A DNA stretch of 64,000 nucleotides from positions 1 to 64,000 of the forward strand of contig CALEDJ010000006.1 in NCBI GenBank assembly GCA_937951485.1, written 5' to 3'. Positions 33,422-38,694 of this stretch are shown here, in pieces. The notes beneath the pieces were generated by a model. The model worked only from the letters and a program-made list of their open reading frames with translations. It was not told the origin of the DNA and ran no database searches. Origin of the DNA: an uncultured bacterium (GTDB lineage Bacteria > Hydrogenedentota > Hydrogenedentia > Hydrogenedentales > CAILVY01). Positions within the stretch are counted from its first letter, which is position 1. Every line of letters begins with the position of its first letter. The position numbers were made by a program, and so were the translations under genes.

Positions 33422-35308
33422 ATGAGCATTGTTCGTCTGGAAAACGTGAGCAAGTATTTCGCCGGCGCGGCGGTGCTGGAGGGCGTTGACTTCCGCGTGG
33501 AGGAGGGGGAACATATCGGGCTGATCGGGCGCAACGGCACCGGAAAATCCACGGTGTTTCGGCTCATTACGGGGGAGATTCAGCCCGACGGCGGCGTCAT
33601 CGAGCGCATGAAACGGGCGCGGATCGCATGCCTGGCGCAGTTGCCGCAGGTGGCGGCGGGCGCGACGATATTTGACATCGTGCTGCATACTTTTCAGGAT
33701 TTGATCGAACAGGAGCGCGCACTCGCCGCGCTGGAGGACCGGATGGCGGCGGGAGACGAGGCCGCGCTGGCGGAATATGGTCCGATGCAGGAGCACTTCG
33801 CCGCGCGCGGCGGCTACGAATTCCGCGGCAAGATCAAACGGGTGTTGCAGGGGCTGGGCTTTCCTCCCGAGGAGTTCAACCTGCCGTTCCACGCATTGAG
33901 CGGGGGGCAGCGAACCCGCCTCATGCTGGCGCTGGTGCTCTTGCAGGATGCCGACCTGCTCCTGCTGGACGAACCGGAGAATCATCTCGACCTGGAGGCG
34001 CGGGAATGGCTGGAGGAATACCTCCGCCAATCCCGCGCGGCGGTGGTCATCATCTCGCATGACCGGCAAATGCTCAACGCCGTCGCCACGCGCCTTGTCG
34101 AGGTGGAACGGGGGAATCTTTTCAATTACAGCGGCAATTACGCTTTTTATATGGGACAAAAAGCGCTGTTGCGGGAACAGCAACAGCGCGCCTTTGAGCG
34201 TCAGCAGGAATTCATCCGCAAGGAAGAGGCCTGGATTGACCGGTTCCGCTACAAGAATACCAAGGCGCGGCAGGTGCAAAGCCGCATCAGGCGGCTGGAA
34301 AAGATGGAAATGGTGGATGCGCCGCCGCCGGAGGCGTCCTCCGCGACATTCAACCTTGGCCCTGTCGTTCGCAGCGGGGCCGTAGTGCTCGAAGCCAGGG
34401 ACCTGTGCATGGGCTACGGCCCGCTGACGCTCTACAAGGACTTGTCCTTCCAGGTCCGTCGCGGCGAGCGCATCGGCCTGGTCGGACCCAACGGGTCCGG
34501 CAAAACCACTCTGCTGCGCCATCTCTCCGGGAAAATCCAGGGGCTGGGCGGCACGGTCACCCTCGGTCACAAGGTCACCCTGAACTACTATGAGCAGAAT
34601 CATGAGAGCATGAACCCCGCGAACGATGTACTGACGGAGGTGCATTCCGTTCGCCCGGAATGGACGCCGCAGGAAGTCCGGTCCTTTCTGGGACGCTTGC
34701 TTTTCACCGGCGATGATGTCTTCAAGCCGGTGCAGGCCTTGAGCGGGGGTGAATTGAGTCGCGTGGCCATGGCGAAACTGATCCTGGGGCGGGCGAATCT
34801 GCTTCTGCTCGATGAACCGACCAATCACCTGGACATCGCCTCGCGCGAAGCGCTGGAAAACGCCTTGGCCGAGTTTCCGGGGAGCATTGTTCTCGCCAGC
34901 CACGACCGCGCACTGATTGACCGCCTGGCGGATCGGCTTATCGTCATTGAACGGGGCAATGCCTCTGTTCACCTCGGCAATTACGCCGAATATCACCGGA
35001 AATATCTGGAATCGTTGGCGCCGGCGCCCCCCAAGAGCACCGATGAGGTGCTTAAAATCCGTCGCGCGCAAGAAGAACGTGAGAAAAAGAAAGCCCGCGA
35101 CCGCGAAGACCGCAAGCAGCGCCGGATTCTGGAGCAGTTGGAACAGGACATTGAGAGCATGGAGGAATTGCTGGAAACTTTTCACGAGAAATTCGCCGCA
35201 CTGGACCCCGCGGATTACGTCGCCGCGCAGCGGCTCAATGAAGAGTACAGCGGGCTGAAGGCTGATTTGAAGGCGCTTTACGAAGAGTGGGAGGCATTGG
35301 TGGATTGA
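33422..35308 (+). CDS. ABC-F family ATPase
   Basis: A 628-residue soluble protein with two ABC domains and no membrane part: Walker A GRNGTGKST and GPNGSGKTT, signatures LSGGQRTRLMLAL and LSGGELSRVAMAKL, Walker B LLLLDEPENHLD and LLLLDEPTNHLD. The linker between domains (about 250-300, rich in R/K/E) is the P-site tRNA interaction motif of ABC-F proteins, and the C-terminus (about 545-628) is a coiled-coil as in Uup. ABC-F proteins act on the ribosome (translation factors or antibiotic protection). Among them it looks most like Uup/YdiF; exact subclass unsettled. Confidence 0.92.
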   Translation: MSIVRLENVSKYFAGAAVLEGVDFRVEEGEHIGLIGRNGTGKSTVFRLITGEIQPDGGVIERMKRARIACLAQLPQVAAGATIFDIVLHTFQDLIEQERALAALEDRMAAGDEAALAEYGPMQEHFAARGGYEFRGKIKRVLQGLGFPPEEFNLPFHALSGGQRTRLMLALVLLQDADLLLLDEPENHLDLEAREWLEEYLRQSRAAVVIISHDRQMLNAVATRLVEVERGNLFNYSGNYAFYMGQKALLREQQQRAFERQQEFIRKEEAWIDRFRYKNTKARQVQSRIRRLEKMEMVDAPPPEASSATFNLGPVVRSGAVVLEARDLCMGYGPLTLYKDLSFQVRRGERIGLVGPNGSGKTTLLRHLSGKIQGLGGTVTLGHKVTLNYYEQNHESMNPANDVLTEVHSVRPEWTPQEVRSFLGRLLFTGDDVFKPVQALSGGELSRVAMAKLILGRANLLLLDEPTNHLDIASREALENALAEFPGSIVLASHDRALIDRLADRLIVIERGNASVHLGNYAEYHRKYLESLAPAPPKSTDEVLKIRRAQEEREKKKARDREDRKQRRILEQLEQDIESMEELLETFHEKFAALDPADYVAAQRLNEEYSGLKADLKALYEEWEALVD

Positions 35309-35392: not shown

Positions 35393-35421
35393 TTGACATT
35401 TGGATGGCAACGTGCTATTAA
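35393..35421 (+). promoter_or_regulatory. Near-consensus sigma70 promoter of a small-ORF unit
   Basis: TTGACA (35393-35398), exactly 17 bp, TATTAA (35416-35421). It is the best -35/-10 pair in this part of the window and drives DNA that holds only small ORFs up to the hairpin at 35866-35899. Confidence 0.7.
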
Positions 35422-35489
35422 TTGTTGCATGCGGCGGATGTGCCGCGGAGCAAGGATAAAGTGTGTCCAGAAGGGAGAACCCGGGCGCC

Positions 35490-35618
35490 ATGAAGCATCA
35501 CAAATGCATCACGCGAAAGCCGCAGTTGTCACAGGTATCGAATTTCCAGGCATGGAAAGATTTCCTGGTGGCATTGACAGATCAGATAATCGAGTTCATT
35601 TTTATCAAAACCCGTTGA
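35490..35618 (+). CDS. Possible 42-residue small protein
   Basis: ATG 35490 is preceded by AAGGGAG about 12 bases upstream and lies about 60 bp after the promoter's expected start site. The predicted peptide has a basic N-terminus (MKHHKCITRKPQ), then SQVSNFQAWKDFLVALTDQ and a hydrophobic end IIEFIFIKTR. It shares the Q(V/I)SNFQ string with the next small ORF. Not recognised. It could be a true small protein or a decayed gene fragment. Confidence 0.4.
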   Translation: MKHHKCITRKPQLSQVSNFQAWKDFLVALTDQIIEFIFIKTR

Positions 35619-35631
35619 CAAGGAACCTGTT

Positions 35632-35841
35632 ATGAAAACCGAGCGCCATCTGAACCTGATTAGTCGGTCTCCGCGCTGCGCGCAAATCAGCAATTTCCAG
35701 ATCAAACTGGAAAGCACGACAGAGATCATTGACCGTCTGCTGCTTGTCCCGCGCCAGCAACCGTGGAAGGCGACCGGCCCAAGTGGTAACGGCACCGATA
35801 CCACGACGGGCACAATCCCAGGCACCACCACGGAACTGTGA
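35632..35841 (+). CDS. Possible 69-residue small protein with Gly/Thr-rich tail
   Basis: ATG 35632 follows AAGGA by about 8 bases and begins 13 bp after the previous small ORF. The N-terminal half contains RCAQISNFQIKLESTTEIIDRLLL, echoing the SNFQ of its neighbour. The C-terminal end is low-complexity (GPSGNGTDTTTGTIPGTTTE). A hairpin with features of a terminator follows 25 bp later. No family recognised. No modification enzyme is nearby, so I do not call it a RiPP precursor. Confidence 0.4.
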   Translation: MKTERHLNLISRSPRCAQISNFQIKLESTTEIIDRLLLVPRQQPWKATGPSGNGTDTTTGTIPGTTTEL

Positions 35842-35865
35842 CCCAAAGTCCTTGCCGAATTGTGC

Positions 35866-35905
35866 AACGCCTTCACCCTGCATGTGGGGAGAAGGCGTTT
35901 TCTGT
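35866..35905 (+). terminator. Hairpin ending the small-ORF unit
   Basis: AACGCCTTC (35866-35874) and GAAGGCGTT (35891-35899) form a perfect 9-bp stem with a 16-base loop, followed by TTCTGTTC. The U-run is interrupted, so termination may be partial. Confidence 0.5.
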
Positions 35906-36128
35906 TCAGTAAGAAGCATGCCAATCGGCAGAAGCGATATCGGTAATCAGTGCTGTCGAAAACAGATTATTAAGAAGATGAAAGACCATGCCCAAAACCC
36001 TTGGAAAACCCTGTTGAATCAAGATAATGTGGCGGGCTTATCCTGTACGCAAACCTCTCCGCGGGAATTTCTGAGACATCATTGATCTCTGCACCAGGGG
36101 GTACTGTTTTGTTCCCCCCTCACCCCAC

Positions 36129-36203
36129 CCCTCTCCCAGCGGGAGAGGGCGTTTAGCGCGCAACCTGAGGCATGCTGTTGCTCCCTCTCCCTCCGGGAGA
36201 GGG
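36129..36203. repeat. REPIN-like palindrome pair, inverted relative to the 5' array
   Basis: Palindromes at 36129-36149 and 36183-36203 are separated by 33 bp. That spacer is the reverse complement of the 5' array spacer with a few changes (GCGTTTA...GCGCAACC). CCCTCACCCCACC flanks it, as at 26780. Confidence 0.85.
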
Positions 36204-36206
36204 GTT

Positions 36207-36593
36207 GAGTTGCGTGCGTCACGTTCTGCAAAAGAGGCCATTTGCCACCAGGACGGCGCGGCTGCGAATCACGCCGTCTTCACGCCCCTTCTCGTAGCGC
36301 GCATCCAGCACCAGGTACGGATAAGACTCCTCTTCAACGACTTCTTGATATTCTGCTTTCCAGGCATGGTGTTGGCTCCTTCTTGATTTGTTGTGAGTAA
36401 ATTTCCGAACTCATCATGCCCTCTTTTTGCAGAACTTGTGAAGCATAACCGAATTAGCCAGCAATGACTGGACGGCGGAGTCAAAGATTTTGCGGTGTTG
36501 TTCTCCCCCACCCGACCTTTCACAAATGGCTCGTGCAGCCTGTCAGCCTCTTCCAGAAACTTTAGACAAAATCTTTCACGGTCGAGAAAGAAT
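36207..36593 (-). mobile_element. IS256-like transposase remnant in composite repeat, copy 2 (B-A order)
   Basis: The same two segments as at 26381-26771 but swapped: B at 36207-36450, with YLVLDARYEKGREDG and VIRSRAVLVA on the minus strand, then A at 36451-36593. The B-to-A junction is GCATAACC|GAATTAGCC. The transposase fragment has an R-to-G change in the conserved motif and no complete frame. Segment A extends to the last codons of the GH28-like gene. Confidence 0.75.
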
Positions 36594-38264
36594 TCCGTTG
36601 AGCGCCAGCGCGGTTTCGGGAACTTCCGGCCCACGGTGCACACCTCGATTCGCACGGGTCAGGTCGCATGCCGTGAGATGGATGGCTTGGGTCCGGTCCC
36701 CGGCAACTTCGAGGAAAACCTGGGTATCGGGCGCGGCCACAGTCCCCGACAGGAAAGCATCCCGTACGTTCACGAAATGCAATACCGCCGCGCCGTCCGG
36801 CGAGGCCAAGGCATGCAACCCAGTGACACGAATGCCCGCGACATTGTCCATTACGATAGCGTGGCCCGGAACGCCCGGCCCTGCGGGGGTCGGATGAAGA
36901 CTGGATGGGTCCCAGGAAACATTGCGGTAGTCGTCGGCCTCGAGCCGCCAGAAGTCCTCAGCATACAAGAGTTGAACATTGTTCAGGGTCAAGTCTTTTA
37001 TGTGACGGACATACAGCCCATAGGCCGGTAACCCGCCGAACATGCGTGATTCCGGATACGCTCCTTCAACTTCAGGTACGGCTTCATCGGCTGGCTTATA
37101 GGTGGAACCGCCGGTATATGTAAACCTGACATTGCTCAGGCTTACTCCTTCAACAGGATGACCTGGTATTCCGGTGATGGAACTTGCCAGCGTTGCGTTT
37201 GTCGCAATAATATTATCAATATTCACGTTTTTCAGGGTGCCGGGCACTGGTGACGGCATATCACGCCCGCGATTGCCCAGGCGGATAAAAATGGGCGCTC
37301 GTATATCATGCATGACCACGTTCGATACGGATACCCCATCAATATGAGCGCCATCTACGGTCATGATGCCGAGGCCGGCATTGGCGGGACGATAGCGCCC
37401 CTGGCTGGCCTGTTCCCCCCCCTGGAGTCCCTTCATGACACAGTTGCTGAGAACGATTCGCTTGAAGTCGCCGCCGGATTCGGTGCCTAGTTTGAACGTG
37501 CTGCACGCCGATTCGAGGTAACAGTTGGTGACAGATACATCCTCTGTGGAACGCCGCCCGCCGAGCGAAAAACTGGATTTCAGCACAATGGCGTCATCCC
37601 AACTGACAATGTGGCAGTTCGCGATGCGCACATGGCGGCTTGCATCCGGGTCAATGCCGTCGGAATGGGCGTTGAGGATCATTACACCATCTATGTTGAC
37701 ATAATCCGTGCCGAGCAAACTGACGGCGTAATTCGGCGCGTTTCGGATGGTCACATCCCGGATTTCGACAAATTTGCAGCGCTTGAGCGCTATGGACTTC
37801 GGTCCCCCGCGCCGTTCACGGTTGCTGTCAATGGTCCCCCCGCCGAGGATGCCCACCCGATCGGCATCTTCCGCCCAGATCAGCGAAAAATGAAAAAACG
37901 ACGTTTCGCGGTCAGCGTCATTTGGGAAGTCAATCGTTTCATAAGGGTCATAGTCGTCGTCCGAGGGACTGCCGAGGATCGTTGCGCCGGGGTCAAGCCA
38001 CAGCCGCACGCCGCTCTTCAGCCGGATGCTGCCGGACAGATAGACACCCGGCGGAAAATAGACGGTTCCCCCTCCCCCATCCGCACAGGCGTCAACGGAT
38101 CTTTGGATGGCGGGGCTGTCCCTCGTTTTGCCGTCACCAACCGCGCCATACGCCGTGACCACATGGGGCGCGGGTGGGACAGTACTTGCAGCAGACAAAG
38201 CCCCCACAGCACATTGGATGAATATGAAAAAACATAACACACCCGTGAGCAGCCCATTCACCAT
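36576..38264 (-). CDS. Secreted GH28-like (polygalacturonase fold) protein
   Basis: A 562-residue protein with a signal peptide (LLTGVLCFFIFIQCAVGALSA) and the GH28 opening VVTAYGAVGDGKTRDSPAIQ. It then has a beta-helix with AHSDGIDPDASRHV (200-212) and IVSWDDAIVLKS (219-230), which supply the Asp residues of the GH28 site. The usual GHG and RIK motifs are not evident: ACSTFKLGTESGG and RPANAGLGIM stand where they would be expected. Substrate could therefore differ from pectin. The last seven residues and stop codon come from the neighbouring repeat segment A, so the natural C-terminus may have been replaced. Confidence 0.82.
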   Translation of the reverse strand: MVNGLLTGVLCFFIFIQCAVGALSAASTVPPAPHVVTAYGAVGDGKTRDSPAIQRSVDACADGGGGTVYFPPGVYLSGSIRLKSGVRLWLDPGATILGSPSDDDYDPYETIDFPNDADRETSFFHFSLIWAEDADRVGILGGGTIDSNRERRGGPKSIALKRCKFVEIRDVTIRNAPNYAVSLLGTDYVNIDGVMILNAHSDGIDPDASRHVRIANCHIVSWDDAIVLKSSFSLGGRRSTEDVSVTNCYLESACSTFKLGTESGGDFKRIVLSNCVMKGLQGGEQASQGRYRPANAGLGIMTVDGAHIDGVSVSNVVMHDIRAPIFIRLGNRGRDMPSPVPGTLKNVNIDNIIATNATLASSITGIPGHPVEGVSLSNVRFTYTGGSTYKPADEAVPEVEGAYPESRMFGGLPAYGLYVRHIKDLTLNNVQLLYAEDFWRLEADDYRNVSWDPSSLHPTPAGPGVPGHAIVMDNVAGIRVTGLHALASPDGAAVLHFVNVRDAFLSGTVAAPDTQVFLEVAGDRTQAIHLTACDLTRANRGVHRGPEVPETALALNGILSRP

Positions 38265-38618: not shown

Positions 38619-38694
38619 TGGAGCGGGACACGGGGATCGAACCCGCGACATCCAGCTTGGGAAGCTGGCACTCTACCAACTGAGTTAGTCCCGC
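38619..38694 (-). tRNA. tRNA-Gly (anticodon CCC)
   Basis: The minus strand gives a full cloverleaf of 76 nt including an encoded CCA. The acceptor stem is GCGGGAC/GTCCCGC with discriminator U, the D arm is ACTC...GAGT, the anticodon stem is CCAGC/GCTGG around TTCCCAA (anticodon CCC), and the T arm GCGGG-TTCGATC-CCCGT has one G-U pair. It decodes GGG. Confidence 0.96.

Follow-up and report, generated by a model that had tools for sequence, protein, structure and literature searches.

Two small open reading frames in a genome of the uncultured phylum Hydrogenedentota, here called ORF1 and ORF2, probably form a two-gene operon of RiPP-like precursor peptides, the leader of which would be read in trans by a CteB-like protein encoded elsewhere in the same genome; we put the probability of this reading at roughly 0.65. 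Both ORFs lie at 35393-35905 of the window (the whole 64,000-nucleotide stretch of DNA that was analysed), where an earlier note, made from the sequence alone, had described an isolated transcription unit and had left three readings of it side by side: paired small proteins, peptide precursors, or a regulatory RNA with decoy ORFs.

Organization of the unit and retention of its promoter

All features of the unit are on the + strand. It opens with the near-consensus promoter TTGACA-N17-TATTAA (35393..35421), which is composed of a -35 hexamer TTGACA at 35393-35398, a 17-nt spacer and a -10 hexamer TATTAA at 35416-35421. ORF1 (35490..35618; ATG at 35490, stop codon at 35616-35618) encodes a 42-aa peptide made up of the leader MKHHKCITRKPQLSQ and a helix, and its putative ribosome-binding site, GGGAG (35473..35477), is placed 12 nt before the ATG. 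ORF2 (35632..35841; ATG at 35632, stop codon at 35839-35841) follows the putative ribosome-binding site AAGGA (35620..35624) and encodes a 69-aa peptide with the leader MKTERHLNLISRSPRCAQ, a helix, the element RQxPWKATGPSG and a Thr/Gly-rich tail. A 9-bp hairpin (35866..35899, stem arms 35866-35874 and 35891-35899) closes the unit as a probable terminator; its minimum free energy is -20.4 kcal/mol, and an equally good fold was obtained in only 1 of 200 shuffles. The earlier note had named the promoter, the 42- and 69-codon ORFs with a purine-rich site before each, the hairpin and a string common to both products (QVSNFQ/QISNFQ), and our analysis bore out every one of these elements. Purine-rich stretches precede ORF1 in the homologous loci as well. 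The T-tract 3' of the hairpin stem, TTTTCTGTT, is weak, and because of this the hairpin at 35866-35899 was absent from the list of a stock terminator scan; the ORF1 promoter was likewise absent from the list of a stock sigma-70 scan because that scan demands a T at the sixth -10 position, where TATTAA has another base.

The same promoter form recurs upstream of ORF1 homologues. Of 48 loci, 27 have the pattern TTGACA-N16-18-TA[TC]NNN in the 250 bp preceding ORF1, each time with a spacer of 17 nt; among the other genes in these loci the figure is 4 of 309. Before other peptide clusters the pattern was seen once in 29, and among the genes around those clusters in 5 of 189. The strict form is missing from all 14 f5 loci, all four f7 loci and three others. 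Since the 48 loci are related, this recurrence reflects conservation and not 27 independent gains, and the promoter has been retained in part of the phylum.

ORF1 and ORF2 are paired genes under purifying selection

Searching proteins with ORF2 recovered close homologues, the best at E 7e-26, and an ORF2 profile of 22 homologues matched 52 of 68 Hydrogenedentota genomes at E<=0.01. Across 386 genomes, at E<=0.001, this profile matched 48 genomes, all of them Hydrogenedentota and none among the 318 genomes outside the phylum; the homologous loci in a named collection were labelled Hydrogenedentes, Hydrogenedentota or Hydrogenedens in 17 of 19 cases and 'uncultured bacterium' in two. ORF1-like and ORF2-like genes occur together in 49 of the 52 matched genomes, including the genome of the window, with the exceptions of L102 (two ORF2-like matches) and L104 and L105 (one match each). 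Selection on codons was estimated in 40 comparisons, that is, 20 hand-picked genome pairs for both ORFs. The 29 finite dN/dS values ranged from 0.024 to 0.355 and 24 of them were below 0.2, while synonymous sites were saturated in the remaining 11 (pN 0.04-0.25). These data show that both ORFs are genes, that they are paired and that they are under purifying selection. The earlier note had asked for homologues and for selection on codons; relatives across the phylum and dN/dS well below 1 supply both, and its suggestion of paired small proteins holds.

The ORF2 profile also matches ORF1 (down to E 1.6e-6, in G022), and therefore ORF1 and ORF2 are paralogues. Both start with H-x3-[VI]-[ST]-[RK]-x-P-x2-A-Q and then continue into a helix; among 96 aligned ORF1 and ORF2 products from 48 loci, the His is present in 96, the Pro in 90 and the final Q in 82. 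AlphaFold2 predicted a helix at residues 12-41 of ORF1, with a pLDDT of 92 at residues 21-40 and a loose N-terminus, and a helix at residues 16-42 of ORF2, in which the Gly/Thr-rich tail already pointed out in the earlier note is present and disordered (residues 52-69, pLDDT <50). Since the mean pLDDT of the ORF2 model is 61.8, only its helix is usable. After the leader, Cys was found in 0 of 48 ORF1 and 0 of 48 ORF2 products, and in the main families the body residues are constrained as much as the leader. Low-complexity Gly/Thr-rich inserts separate the ORF1 leader from the helix in two loci (L065 and L095), so the joint between leader and helix is tolerant. Searches of ORF1, ORF2 and some relatives against Pfam, NCBIfam and PHROGs gave nothing significant, nor did PDB sequence searches with the peptide profiles, and IMG/VR and phage searches with ORF2 found no relative.

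Chromosomal setting of the pair

The description of the unit as isolated is partly wrong, as the pair occupies a conserved chromosomal place. In the window an ABC-F gene (33422..35308, + strand; Pfam ABC_tran and ABC_tran_Xtn) lies upstream and repeat DNA downstream. The ABC-F gene, thought to be outside the unit, is the commonest upstream neighbour, lying directly upstream of the pair in 15 other loci, with PEPCK in between in two more. Directly downstream and convergent is a protein kinase gene in 18 loci, beyond which RsfS (15 loci), GatB (16), GatA (16) and GatC (10) are often found; the names of PEPCK, ABC-F and the kinase were confirmed with Pfam, and the other names were given from sequence. 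A CteB-like gene beside the pair was found in 0 of the 52 regions read, and no exporter was recognised adjoining the pair in these regions.

In the window, repeat DNA and a GH28 gene occupy the place of the relatives' kinase-RsfS-Gat block. An interspersed repeat at 35938-36100, which has at least seven further copies in the same genome (~139-157 bp, 86-91% identity), is followed by a 28-nt inverted repeat of CCCTCTCC type at 36122-36210; the gene of a GH28-type glycosidase adjoins the repeat (36576-38264, - strand), and tRNA-Gly(CCC) is found at 38619-38694 (- strand). In 13 loci (L061, L068, L070, L071, L095-L097, L099, L102, L107, L108, L111 and L126), PEPCK-GTP (7 loci) or PEPCK-ATP (6 loci), which are different protein families, lies upstream of the pair; one of each type was checked by Pfam. 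A functional link of the pair to PEPCK was dropped as a general one because ABC-F and other genes occupy the same place elsewhere.

The leader is shared with tandem A-B-C peptides

A combined ORF1 and ORF2 profile matched 61 of the 68 phylum genomes (E<=0.05), and its first ~18 positions alone matched further small ORFs elsewhere, which encode small proteins that are alike at the N-terminus and then divergent. A strict DNA pattern for M-[KR]-H-x3-[VIL]-[ST]-[RK]-x-P-x2-A was found at 78 sites in 46 of the 68 phylum genomes and at a single site in the 318 others, and the reversed leader pattern, as a control, at one site in 386 genomes. With a leader profile of 50 peptides, which took in three ORF1-type peptides and the ORF1 of the window, matches were obtained at E<=0.01 in 64 of the 68 phylum genomes and in none of the 318 others, with up to nine leader peptides per genome and seven in the genome of the window.

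Many genomes carry tandem arrays of three to six leader peptides, which begin with type A, often with several members, and continue with B and then C. Type B has the body 'LCTNIxSDxQARxCFVLxFLT' and type C the body 'PEVKLTFIxxxLxxxxPLFxNKNPQNP', and Cys is present in 25% of the cluster peptide bodies. The genome of the window carries an A-B-C-type cluster of its own at G000:C34 (L192, four members). Mean body identity is 0.44 for ORF1 and 0.42 for ORF2 compared to 0.40 for type B and 0.43 for type C; the bodies of the pair are thus not better conserved than those of the cluster types. An extra member of ~39 aa with another body type (MKHxxPIxxxxADAFTNFxNxxWRAWMDFRYEKKNEYAL) ends the tandem clusters of L199, L201, L202 and L215, that of L201 being more divergent. 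One type A peptide weakly matched PHROG 379 (E 0.098) and a SecE model (E 0.047), and we regard both matches as noise.

When a cluster-leader profile was scored on the 4852 start codons of the window, ORF2 ranked first with 25.8 bits and ORF1 second with 24.2 bits. The next starts scored 17.4 bits (inside a 320-aa ORF) and 7.1 bits, with a mean over the window of -17.7 and an SD of 6.1. Into this profile went 68 cluster peptides; a further 44 of the 112 available from other genomes were omitted on account of a different His-Pro spacing, and neither the genome of the window nor the ORF1/ORF2 loci contributed to it. ORF1 and ORF2 have their leader in common with the C34-type cluster. A short precursor whose conserved leader is common to different bodies, as is generally expected of RiPP precursors, is what we found, and the GG cleavage motif of double-glycine-leader bacteriocins is missing from ORF1 and ORF2, in which the motif ends in A-Q. 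Among the functions that the earlier note had considered, peptide precursors is the best supported, the leader being common to a RiPP-like gene cluster.

The proposed partner cluster encodes a CteB-like protein without CxxxCxxC

Genes for two GNAT acetyltransferases (PF13302), a CPBP/Rce1-like protease (PF02517), an ABC ATPase, an ABC-2 permease and a CteB-like protein lie 3' of A-B-C on the same strand. In 36 fetched regions, many of which end at contig ends, the CteB-like protein was counted 18 times, the GNATs 17 and 17 times, the ABC ATPase 14 times, the CPBP protease 13 times and the permease 8 times. The CteB-like protein is mostly 600-720 aa long and matches the SCIFF-maturase model TIGR03974 (E 1.1e-18) and the QhpD and PapB models, in every case below the cut-off. 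Its profile aligned over positions 4-425 (E 2e-40) with PDB 5wgg ('Radical SAM domain protein'), which we take to be the SCIFF maturase CteB, and a GNAT domain lies C-terminal to the aligned part. CxxxCxxC was found in 0 of 18 CteB-like proteins, and the stretch of 5wgg with CNLRCKYC is aligned to positions that are without the motif, while the SPASM motif CxxCx5CGG is present in 17 of 18, the exception (L201) being split between contigs. No RRE match was found in the CteB-like protein against Pfam at E<=0.1. In the genome of the window the gene is located at G000:C34:68948-70867, and the N-terminal region of its product is again aligned to 5wgg, without a Pfam RRE match.

The CteB-like protein was found in 62 of 68 phylum genomes and in 0 of 318 others. 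Of the six that are without it, five belong to family f4 and one is 60% complete. G018, G023, G028 and G032 (family f4) have neither leader peptides nor CteB-like protein, a joint absence that perhaps represents one event in one family, either a single loss or an early branch, and G005 and G040 (the latter 60% complete) have leader peptides while the CteB-like protein is absent. Conversely, a CteB-like gene without a detected pair is present in at least five genomes (G013, G030, G044, G050 and G065). In G027, G035, G038, G045 and G057, the A-B-C peptides are found kilobases away from the CteB-like gene, on other contigs; distance between peptide and reader is therefore normal in the phylum. 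A canonical SCIFF maturase was also considered as the constant partner and was rejected, as a TIGR03974 match at E<=1e-20 was obtained in only 21 of the 68 phylum genomes, the genome of the window not being one of them, and none of these matches was over the cut-off.

Discussion

We propose that ORF1 and ORF2 are made from one operon as two precursor peptides, each with a basic N-terminal leader of ~15 residues and a helical body; in ORF2 this body is followed by a Trp/Pro element and a Thr/Gly tail predicted to be disordered. In this reading a putative RRE domain, at about residues 1-95 of the CteB-like protein encoded at G000:C34, would bind the leader in trans. Only the leader ties the pair to that gene, given that the two were not co-located in any of the 52 regions, and action in trans is plausible, the unlinked A-B-C peptides of five phylum genomes being a precedent. 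As judged from sequence, acetylation would be the likely modification and not a thioether cross-link, since the bodies are without Cys and the reader protein is without the radical-SAM motif and carries a GNAT domain; the Cys-free bodies of ORF1 and ORF2 fit the absence of the radical-SAM cysteines. Trimming would probably be carried out by the cluster's CPBP protease, and the ABC-2 transporter encoded alongside it would probably export the products. How widely the pair is conserved and where it lies on the chromosome favour a housekeeping peptide over an antibiotic.

Other explanations of the pair draw in part on the same evidence. ORF1 and ORF2 might be small structural or assembly proteins, the N-terminus of which would be an uncleaved docking tag and the helical bodies of which would be envelope or intracellular subunits, docking perhaps to the same RRE-bearing protein as a scaffold. 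Such a role would agree with body residues that are constrained like the leader in the main families, with the confident AlphaFold2 helix of ORF1, with a CteB-like protein that has no radical-SAM motif and may only bind, and with the syntenic place that the pair holds amid housekeeping genes in many genomes. However, the cluster peptides are accompanied by a protease, an exporter and acetyltransferases, which suit processed and exported peptides, and the insertion of low-complexity sequence after the leader in L065 and L095 suits a leader that can be separated from the body, so that we consider this explanation unlikely while still taking it seriously. We find it a good deal harder to believe in a two-component secreted peptide, bacteriocin-like or signalling: phylum-wide conservation and dN/dS below 0.2 in 24 of 29 finite values are unlike antagonistic peptides, and no recognised exporter adjoins the pair, even though there are two peptides per operon, their helices are hydrophobic or amphipathic and their relatives in the clusters occur together with an ABC-2 exporter and a CPBP protease.

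A toxin-antitoxin module or a regulatory-RNA unit with decoy ORFs might be expected to have two small ORFs, a strong promoter and a terminal hairpin, all of which are present here. Nevertheless, the two ORFs are paralogous and have no match in Pfam, NCBIfam or PHROGs, and we give this explanation hardly any credence. Its RNA form, which the earlier note had listed, is already contradicted by the selection seen at the codon level in ORF1 and ORF2, and a search of the unit region against Rfam gave no match.

Returning to the RiPP-like precursors, we tentatively suggest a wider picture, which we think somewhat less likely to be right than wrong. A phylum-defining system may have arisen from a SCIFF/CteB module whose catalyst lost its iron-sulfur motif, became fused to an acetyltransferase and came to serve as the common leader reader for up to about nine dispersed peptides, ORF1 and ORF2 among them; these would be a conserved, exported housekeeping set and a new RiPP class. 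If this is true, nearly a whole uncultured phylum has a common set of short peptides that annotation easily misses, a SCIFF-like leader is used without the SCIFF cysteines, and a relative of the maturase has swapped radical chemistry for an acetyltransferase. The leader-RRE pair would then be a module separable from the chemistry, and precursors could remain at a permanent distance from their cluster. With the leader profile, such peptides can be found by a simple search. In the titles and abstract openings of the openly licensed literature we found no description of such a Hydrogenedentota peptide system, and no word beginning Hydrogenedent- occurs in the main text of PMC10849945, which deals with novel families of uncultured taxa.

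Comparison with known systems

The closest parallels are with SCIFF (TIGR03973) and ScfB/CteB (TIGR03974), the ranthipeptides of Clostridia: the leaders of three SCIFF precursors resemble the leader described here over its first seven positions, and the RRE-barrel-SPASM maturase is homologous to the CteB-like protein. In a passage of PMC12710340, HIxxI is given for sactipeptides as a sequence known to be recognised by the RRE, and Grove 2017 is among the four references for the motif list; according to a passage of PMC8326336, Grove 2017 is the CteB structure paper, and the leader of CteA forms a beta strand where it sits on the CteB RRE. H[ILVM]xx[ILVM] was found in 80 of 116 cluster leaders, 37 of 48 ORF2 and 12 of 48 ORF1 compared to 24 of 921 control proteins, and the residue after the motif His is itself His in 23 of 48 ORF1. 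TIGR03973 was matched over its cut-off in three non-phylum genomes among 128 searched, whose SCIFF precursors start with MRHIKVVAKRP, GKHIKII (after MG) and KRIVTLS (after GTG). Over the first seven positions of our profile these leaders scored 10.4, 13.4 and 9.3, whereas a score of at least 8 was reached by 10 of 4349 window starts; over all 14 positions they scored 1.6, -10.9 and -4.7, in the same order. Since the scores fall beyond position seven, the likeness to SCIFF is confined to the H-I-x-x-I part, after which the leaders described here diverge.

Wide conservation within one large taxon is a further likeness to SCIFFs, which are described in a passage of PMC8326336 as widespread in Clostridia, arguing against an antimicrobial role. 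Unlike SCIFF, with six Cys in 45, the bodies of ORF1 and ORF2 are free of Cys, and the genome of the window gave no match to TIGR03973 at E<=1. Unlike ScfB/CteB, the CteB-like protein has a GNAT domain and is without CxxxCxxC, and no radical SAM maturase with that motif is adjacent to the ORF1/ORF2 pair. In addition, a Hydrogenedentota genome has several precursor types, which is not so in the SCIFF system.

Microviridins are GNAT-tailored RiPPs, and acetyltransferases are also part of the peptide cluster described here, in which, unlike in microviridins, a GNAT domain is fused to the putative RRE/SPASM scaffold as well. Finally, several precursors with one leader and presumably one recognition protein recall the prochlorosins (Nif11-type, with the promiscuous ProcM), as portrayed in a passage of PMC10783134. 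In contrast to the prochlorosins, the bodies of the Hydrogenedentota peptides are conserved and not variable, their leader is ~15 aa and not ~60, and the enzymes are unrelated.
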